Position numbers and translations under genes: made by a program
Shown here: one piece after another, positions 23,971-24,794 of the stretch
Layout of the letters: each line of letters opens with the position of its first letter
Numbering within the stretch: position 1 is the stretch's first letter
NCBI RefSeq assembly: GCF_000024465.1
Contig: NC_014010.1
Coordinates: 620,001 to 684,000, forward strand
Reading direction: 5' to 3'
From: Candidatus Puniceispirillum marinum IMCC1322
GTDB taxonomy: Bacteria > Pseudomonadota > Alphaproteobacteria > Puniceispirillales > Puniceispirillaceae
Length of the DNA stretch: 64,000 nucleotides
Notes under the pieces: model-generated
The model's database searches: none
Seen by the model: only the letters and a program-made list of their open reading frames with translations
Told to the model about the DNA's origin: nothing

Positions 23971-24729
23971 TTAGAAATGGCAGTGTGGACAGTTTTCTTT
24001 ACCTGCCTGCGAACAGTTTTTTGCGATTTCAAGATCACAAAAATGGCATAGGGCAAAAGCATCACTCATCCTAATTTTGTTTCCATCAACAGTGATACCC
24101 ATTTTCCGTATTTTTTTTAAGGCTCGCGAAAATGTTTCAGGCGTCATGCCAAGATGGCTGGCGATGGTCGCTTTCTTGAAGCTCAACTCAAACGACATGC
24201 TGTTTGCGCCTTGTTCAATATGCTTTTGAAGTAAATAATGGCCAATTCGCTGAAATGGCGTTTTTATGGAAATATTATCAACCTGATCTATGGCACTTTC
24301 GTAATGTGTGGCCAGCGTTTTAAGCATATTTATCGAAAATTGGCTGTCTTTGAGTACAAGATTTTTGACAAATGTTGCAGATATTTCCAATATACGTGAC
24401 TTCGCTGTTACCTCTACCGCAAAGGGTGAATTACCACCCATAAAAACAGTAGCCGCCATGCAACTCTCGCCCTGATCAAGCATACGAAGCGTCACTTCGT
24501 CCCCCTCTTTACCAGAGCGAAAGGTACGCAAATGCCCTTCCAATAGGATGAAAATGCACCATACGTCATCACCCTGTTGAACAAGCATTTTTCCACCTTC
24601 ATACTCCTTGACCACCGAATGAGAAAGAATGTCTTGCAGGGCTGATTTATCCAATCCCTGAAAAAGTTGTGGTTTACCTTTCGCAAATAATAATGGTGGA
24701 AACCAAGTTTCGGTTTCAAGATTTGTCAT
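23971..24729 (-). CDS. FNR-like Crp-family regulator with a C-terminal cysteine cluster
   Basis: 252 residues: a cyclic-nucleotide-binding-type sensor domain (about 20-140), a dimerisation helix (about 133-165) and a winged helix (about 170-222). The recognition helix reads HLGMTPETFSRALKKIRKMG, and E198-x-x-S201-R202 is the residue pattern by which FNR reads TTGAT half-sites. There is no N-terminal cysteine cluster. Instead the last 25 residues hold Cys228, 231, 239, 247 and 250 (C-x2-C-x7-C-x7-C-x2-C). Bacillus subtilis Fnr also carries its [4Fe-4S] ligands at the C-terminus, so an oxygen or NO-sensing cluster is plausible. A perfect FNR box lies 52 bases upstream of the start. ATG at 24729 preferred over GTG at 24732. 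Confidence 0.87.
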   Translation of the reverse strand: MTNLETETWFPPLLFAKGKPQLFQGLDKSALQDILSHSVVKEYEGGKMLVQQGDDVWCIFILLEGHLRTFRSGKEGDEVTLRMLDQGESCMAATVFMGGNSPFAVEVTAKSRILEISATFVKNLVLKDSQFSINMLKTLATHYESAIDQVDNISIKTPFQRIGHYLLQKHIEQGANSMSFELSFKKATIASHLGMTPETFSRALKKIRKMGITVDGNKIRMSDAFALCHFCDLEIAKNCSQAGKENCPHCHF

Positions 24730-24758
24730 CACCTAAATCCATCAATTGAACCTGCATT

Positions 24759-24780
24759 GATCAGATAAAATTATCTGATC
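24759..24780 (-). promoter_or_regulatory. perfect 22-base palindrome next to the FNR box
   Basis: Arms GATCAGATAA (24759-24768) and TTATCTGATC (24771-24780) are exact inverted copies around a 2-base centre. It directly abuts the FNR box, between it and the start codon 30 bases away, so it would overlap the core promoter. It is a likely operator for a dimeric repressor; the regulator is not known. Confidence 0.6.
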
Positions 24781-24794
24781 TTGATTTCAATCAA
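24781..24794 (-). promoter_or_regulatory. perfect FNR/DNR box (TTGAT-N4-ATCAA)
   Basis: TTGATTTCAATCAA matches the FNR consensus at all ten defined positions. It lies upstream of the FNR-like gene itself, its only plausible target, and the encoded protein has the matching E-x-x-S-R recognition residues. Autoregulation is inferred; activation versus repression cannot be told without the transcription start. Confidence 0.8.

Follow-up and report, generated by a model that had tools for sequence, protein, structure and literature searches.

A Crp/Fnr-type regulator of a marine alphaproteobacterium with a conserved C-terminal four-cysteine tail, and the nitrate-respiration genes that accompany its relatives

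According to PMC5398030, the ligands of the E. coli FNR cluster are C20, C23, C29 and C122. The Fnr proteins of Bacillus carry a C-terminal [4Fe-4S] cluster (PMC3520743 and PMC12937710), and the former source gives C227-x2-C230-x4-C235 together with Asp141 as its ligands. NarR of Paracoccus, which controls narKGHJI in Alphaproteobacteria, is also a Crp/Fnr protein and is reported to lack a [4Fe-4S] cluster (PMC8139620). The regulator described here shares with canonical FNR, FnrL and FnrP the E-x2-S-R residues, the TTGAT-N4-ATCAA boxes and the type of target genes, but has tail cysteines instead of the E. coli ligands; with the Fnr of B. subtilis and B. cereus it has in common the FNR type and putative cluster ligands in a C-terminal extension, whereas its spacing, C-x2-C-x7-C-x7-C, differs from that of the Bacillus proteins, which were compared by description. 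Most of its relatives share the genomic neighbourhood of NarR but, in contrast to that protein (likewise compared by description), have four conserved tail cysteines. The window, that is, the whole stretch of 64,000 nucleotides that was analysed, comes from Candidatus Puniceispirillum marinum IMCC1322, which we take to belong to the SAR116 clade.

The regulator gene lies on the minus strand of the window at positions 23971 to 24732, and its product comprises 253 amino acids when counted from the GTG at 24732 and 252 when counted from the adjoining alternative ATG at 24729. Both the cNMP-binding beta-roll (Pfam cNMP_binding) and the HTH_Crp_2 domain scored above the Pfam gathering cut-offs, which places the protein in the Crp/Fnr superfamily. 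Its cysteines, in ATG numbering, are residues 58, 90, 228, 231, 239, 247 and 250. An earlier sequence-only reading of this DNA had claimed FNR recognition residues, a missing N-terminal cysteine cluster and five cysteines near the C-terminus, and all three claims agreed with the protein sequence: the recognition helix (TPE198-T-F-S-R202, with E198 to R202 encoded at 24124-24138, minus strand) resembles the VETISR of E. coli FNR, only Cys58 and Cys90 precede the tail, and the tail itself reads C228-x2-C231-x7-C239-x7-C247-x2-C250 (23980-24048, minus strand). Cys90, which belongs to the beta-roll (window positions 24460-24462), was invariant in the four closest sequences and was found in further relatives, though some tail-bearing ones lack it. 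An AlphaFold2 model of the regulator, built from two sequences, had a mean pLDDT of 46.9 and was too poor to reveal whether the thiols come together.

We compared the tail across 45 distinct tail-bearing sequences, chosen by the pattern LC.[FYVI] near the end of the protein. Cys1, which is part of that selection pattern, Cys2, Cys3 and Cys4 were present in 45, 44, 45 and 45 of them, respectively, and the gap between Cys3 and Cys4 was exactly 7 residues in 40. One relative, L033, had neither Cys2 nor Cys5. The four core cysteines were also found in L147 and L168-L170, which were missed by the helix motif and stand outside the count of 45. Judged from these relatives, the conserved core is C-x2-C-x7-C-x7-C, and the fifth cysteine is dispensable because it was found, as CxxC, in only 31 of the 45. 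The proposal of a five-cysteine cluster thus held for its first four members, conserved together in 44 of 45 relatives, but not for the fifth, which is optional, and a five-cysteine ligand set was rejected in favour of four. The three closest homologues, at 45-55% identity, nevertheless retain all five cysteines, in agreement with the pattern expected by the sequence-only reading.

Other alphaproteobacterial Crp/Fnr proteins (L069:12738-13484, L070:12550-13308 and L171-L183) had a tail of a second type, which reads C-x2-C-x4-5-C and in many cases C-x2-C-S. The spacing of this type II tail resembles that of Bacillus Fnr, and of its genes that of L070 stands beside cbb3-type oxidase genes and that of L069 near Hsp20 and Usp genes. 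A TTGAT-N4-ATCAA box was present upstream in one of the nine type II rows tested.

Several assignments to described groups were considered and rejected. The arrangement had been called Bacillus-like, which holds for its C-terminal position but not for its spacing of x2, x7 and x7 with four cysteines, which does not follow the x4/Asp scheme and sets the protein apart from the Bacillus-type Fnr. Membership of canonical FNR was discarded on the missing N-terminal cysteine cluster, on a score of 40.5 bits against a cut-off of 228 with the NCBIfam Fnr model, and on the tree, a quick one with long branches, in which E. coli FNR and two N-terminal-Cys proteins split off at support 99. The NCBIfam equivalog models of FtrB were likewise missed (123.3 bits against a cut-off of 211, and 94.1 against 300). 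A protein of Mesorhizobium (L026), encoded beside an annotated nitrate reductase and an MFS transporter, had no tail and fell outside the tailed group. Among solved structures the core was nearest to the Crp-like 3fx3 and to DNR, followed by FNR; with profile A2 the DNR structure 3dkw matched at E 5e-42 and the FNR structure 9qlt at 1e-20. This closeness to the DNR/NnrR type concerns the core, since none of the solved chains, DNR included, reached beyond profile position 234 among the 60 tabulated of 129 matches, so that the tail was left uncovered.

In front of the regulator gene, a TTGAT-N4-ATCAA box that is a perfect palindrome was found at 24781-24794, separated by 48 bases from the GTG at 24732; the 10/10 match claimed for the promoter was therefore correct. 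In the regions from -200 to +20 of the non-fusion tail-bearing genes, L032 being left out on account of a broken frame, a perfect box with spacer 4 occurred upstream of 34 of 41, the window's gene included, whereas a box with any other spacer from 0 to 24 occurred in 2 of 41. The 34 boxed regions are not independent, since they come from related sequences and in many of them a divergent narK shares the upstream stretch, but the contrast between spacer 4 and the other spacers does not depend on their independence. The seven regions that had no perfect box included those of two SAR116-type relatives, with one and two mismatches. Over the whole window genome 15 perfect boxes had spacer 4, while all spacers from 0 to 24 taken together gave 398, or about 16 for each, so spacer 4 stands at the level of the other spacers and a genome-wide excess of FNR boxes was rejected. 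A control with the reversed pattern, which gave one match, would suggest such an excess; this control is unfair, since the reversed pattern contains TAG. On these comparisons we take the regulator's own box to be more than chance through its position and its conservation in relatives, not through the genome count.

The autoregulation proposed from this box gained support from its conservation, although for most relatives its target may instead be the divergently transcribed narK. When the upstream sequences were aligned on the box, the best match to a -10-like hexamer was situated 29 bp from the box centre in the direction of narK. It was a weak match (mean 2.91 of 6, or 2.7 sd above the 47 positions tested, with 3% of sequences reaching 5 of 6), and the distance hints at class II activation of narK. 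Towards the regulator gene itself, no fixed -10 stood out in the same box-aligned sequences. A 22-bp element directly between the box and the gene, at 24759-24780, consists of a perfect 10-bp inverted repeat with a gap of 2 nucleotides and was scored terminator-like on the plus strand. Repeat arms of at least 8 within 40 bases after the box were present only in the window sequence among the 34 tested and in none of the 33 others; the element may act as an additional operator or form a small hairpin.

Most relatives were found within a nitrate-respiration neighbourhood. A narK homologue was present in 37 of the 44 loci examined and moeA in 33, and narG was detected in 13 of the 18 loci with larger fetched context, one of which is a contig of 7.6 kb; the NarR-type place beside narK and narGHJI is thus common among relatives, whereas the window genome had no NarG match. 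NarK, NarG, NarH, NarJ, NarI, NrdD, HemN and MoaA exceeded the NCBIfam cut-offs in the reference loci, in which NnrS was named by Pfam; the MoeA match stayed below the NCBIfam equivalog cut-offs, with a molybdenum cofactor domain above its own cut-off. Where a larger context had been fetched, the stretch that separates the regulator gene from narK often contained the box, and locus L064 had two further boxes between nrdD and moaA. The loci without narK were those of the SAR116 trio, L065 and L066 (from a single family; in L065 the regulator adjoins cbb3-type oxidase genes), L067, a fusion on a short contig, and L165, a short stretch.

Seven of the 13 genomes with this tail type, the window's included, gave no other HTH_Crp_2 match at E 1e-5, and reading of the sequences identified an N-terminal-Cys FNR in only one of the 13 (G352). 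In three loci the nar cluster is flanked by the tailed regulator at one end and, some 14 kb away at the opposite end, by an untailed Crp/Fnr paralogue (L058:19263-19970, L060:18676-19377 and L063:3290-3991); it stands near NnrS and moaA genes, and the copy in L060 has an FNR box of its own. In L094, a paralogue of Dnr-like type, three cysteines occur early in the protein, where the beta-roll begins.

An N-terminal nitrate-sensing NIT domain lengthens three of the 45 proteins with the tail, namely those of G352 (Pfam E 1.5e-30), G738 (1.2e-40) and G782 (4.9e-28), and the genes of the latter two are divergent from narK1-narK2-narGHJI. Searching 296 genomes of its order with the G738 protein returned matches at E 1e-40 or better in 41, of which 38, G738 included, had a single match spanning NIT, beta-roll and helix-turn-helix (in one case from query residue 105); in one of the remaining genomes the match was in two pieces, and in two only the Crp part matched. 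Among the 14 best-scoring of these 38 that were read as further fusions, C-x2-C-x7-C-x7-C was present and narK lay in the locus in 14 of 14, and 12 had no cysteine after the fourth; the Pfam NIT domain was found in all three of those tested for it. The fusions with the four-cysteine tail (L157:8007-9668, L158:8748-10298, L067:2-1438 and L233-L246) thus adjoin narK in 16 of 17 cases, the exception being the short contig L067. A box with spacer 4 was located near the start in 5 of 16 fusions and boxes with other spacers in none, leaving 11 of 16 without a box. No match covering over 80% of the fusion was obtained in the plasmid collection, and a word-match search of the open-licence literature yielded no report of a C-terminal four-Cys Crp/Fnr protein in Alphaproteobacteria or of a NIT-Crp fusion.

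Relatives were sought in 385 genomes of the class, 398 of the phylum and 142 of the order to which one relative belongs, with profiles that included the tail, so that untailed close relatives would score lower, and with several of the genomes incomplete. One relative from named contigs, at 55% identity, belonged to an Alphaproteobacteria MAG. Of the 61 genomes of the window's family, three have the regulator, one of them being the window's own; a further match, with 22% identity, belongs to a different protein. A homologue on a Sinorhizobium plasmid was dismissed as a tailed relative, since its tblastn match reached the tail region but its reading frame ends before it. The copy in G178 (L063:17360-18113) is split over two frames, either by an assembly error or in a broken gene.

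The tree was built without the tail, by a quick search in which long branches were noted, and the row L151_none82 was dropped beforehand. The nar-linked sequences formed one group of 39 rows (SH-aLRT 94) with no untailed row inside, and the SAR116 trio (support 98) fell within this group, so that the three sequences of the window's family nest among those of another order. Five other tailed rows, three NIT fusions and two loci of one family, stood apart. With the 14 fusions added, all 58 rows with the tail described here (type I) lay on one side of a branch, weakly, at support 59, and a topology that holds type I and type II tails together was not rejected (p-AU 0.87); a single origin of the tail is thus neither established nor refuted by this tree. 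The regulator's patchy presence (3 of 61), together with its nested place in the tree, suggests transfer or wide loss in the window's family.

In the window genome the regulator was the sole match over the HTH_Crp_2 cut-off and also the sole match of its own sequence, and two weaker HTH_Crp_2 matches were read as GntR and DtxR/MntR types; the search for another fnr- or fixK-type gene recommended by the sequence-only reading therefore found none over that cut-off. For NarG, one search of this genome found nothing beyond weak, short partial matches (best E 8e-6), and one search with a query for subunit I of the cbb3-type oxidase, which we label CcoN and which Pfam names COX1, gave no match. A survey of SAR116 describes the clade as obligately aerobic and reports no evidence of anaerobic respiration (PMC12262181).

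The genome scan for further FNR boxes, also recommended earlier, was carried out and located some of the 15 perfect boxes before stress genes. Spacer-4 boxes were intergenic in 7 of 15 cases and sites of other spacers in 5 of 40 (one-sided Fisher p 0.011), the control sites having been drawn consecutively from the first 400 kb, not at random, and with ten that lay close to another site omitted. Intergenic was defined by the longest open frames, not by annotation, and the Hsp20 box was counted as coding owing to an upstream in-frame TTG. Besides the regulator gene, those preceded by a box include a universal stress protein gene, whose ATG lies about 60 bp from the box, and an Hsp20 gene with nnrD after it; Pfam identified the products as Usp, HSP20 and NAD(P)H-hydrate dehydratase (NnrD). 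In the relative G054, the regulator gene has a universal stress protein gene on one side and the divergent Hsp20-nnrD pair on the other, and a box with one mismatch separates it from that pair; the proteins are 49% (USP), 37% (Hsp20) and 51% (NnrD) identical to those of the window genome. FnrL of Dinoroseobacter regulates its own gene as well as universal stress genes (PMC5398030). In the window genome, the probable targets of the regulator are a small group of low-oxygen or stress genes, those for the universal stress protein and Hsp20.

The explanation that we regard as best, and as fairly probable on these comparisons, is an activator of narK and narGHJI with a Dnr/NarR-like core and a C-terminal four-cysteine sensor of O2 or NO of the [4Fe-4S] type. 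The protein would be a dimeric activator that acts at FNR boxes with its sensor behind the DNA-binding domain, in which Cys228, 231, 239 and 247 would most likely hold an oxygen-labile [4Fe-4S] cluster and Cys250 would serve as a reserve or stabilising thiol. As long as the cluster is in place, at low O2 and without NO, it would bind TTGAT-N4-ATCAA and activate class II promoters; loss of the cluster would switch it off by moving the DNA-binding domain and not by splitting the dimer. The cluster would thus couple O2 or NO to DNA binding, as described for Bacillus Fnr with other ligands (PMC3520743 and PMC12937710). The main lineage would use it to control narK-narGHJI, divergent from the regulator gene, along with moeA, moaA and nrdD; in the window genome the protein keeps the box at its own promoter, through which we infer autoregulation, and probably runs the small low-oxygen/stress set. 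Counting against this explanation are the chance-level number of perfect boxes in the window genome, the relative L033 without Cys2 and Cys5, the 7 of 41 non-fusion regions and 11 of 16 fusions that have no perfect box, the lack of a -10 towards the regulator gene and the description of the SAR116 clade as obligately aerobic. The interpretation given in the sequence-only reading was right in outline, although the core has four cysteines instead of five and the ancestral context was probably nitrate respiration.

Cysteines of the CxxC type could equally hold zinc, and the 31 of 45 tails with two CxxC pairs do look like a zinc knuckle. A tail that is a structural zinc site, shaping the C-terminus or a protein contact, would place sensing elsewhere, for instance of NO via haem in a Dnr-like core, in line with the nearness of that core to 3fx3 and DNR among solved structures. 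However, the fifth cysteine and with it the second pair are often missing, and the fusions keep the four cysteines in 14 of 14 cases while 12 of 14 have none after the fourth; moreover, 7 of 13 genomes had no other HTH_Crp_2 match able to sense O2, and we regard the zinc site as unlikely. A metal-free thiol-redox switch, in which disulphides in the tail would report oxidative stress or the general redox state, would suit a genome that has boxes before the USP and Hsp20 genes and no NarG or CcoN match. Yet both the regular C-x2-C-x7-C-x7-C (a last gap of 7 in 40 of 45 relatives, and the full pattern in 14 of 14 fusions) and the nitrate-respiration context fit a set of metal ligands better, which makes such a switch very improbable in our estimation.

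The remaining alternative concerns the window gene more than its tail. It might be a relic or a newcomer that has no real regulon, with its own box inherited and the other boxes due to chance; the presence of the regulator in only 3 of 61 family genomes, the nesting of the trio among another order, the chance number of perfect boxes and the missing NarG and CcoN matches in the window genome would all be expected in that case. Against this, the frame and all five cysteines are intact, the boxes lean to intergenic places and the link with USP and Hsp20 recurs in a second genome, so that we consider it distinctly unlikely that the gene is such a relic or newcomer.

Returning to the four-cysteine cluster sensor, the proteins would constitute an unnamed branch of one-component regulators of nitrate respiration with an O2/NO-responsive four-Cys cluster behind the DNA-binding domain, in which the NIT fusions, a feature of one order, would read nitrate at the N-terminal end and oxygen at the opposite end of one polypeptide before they switch on narK-narGHJI. 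The window protein would belong to this branch, without the nitrate genes it once had, and would be the sole Crp/Fnr switch in a marine bacterium that has neither NarG nor a cbb3 oxidase; for this wider picture our judgement is evenly balanced. The sequence mark LCxFC-x7-C-x7-C could flag such regulators in genomes, where they are otherwise called only Crp/Fnr family. If the tail binds a cluster, it would represent a further FNR-like arrangement for O2 sensing, in Gram-negative bacteria and with four cysteines behind the DNA-binding domain, and it would explain the control of nitrate respiration in small-genome Alphaproteobacteria that have no N-terminal-Cys FNR. The NIT fusions, if this is true, would be a compact nitrate-and-oxygen switch in one protein.
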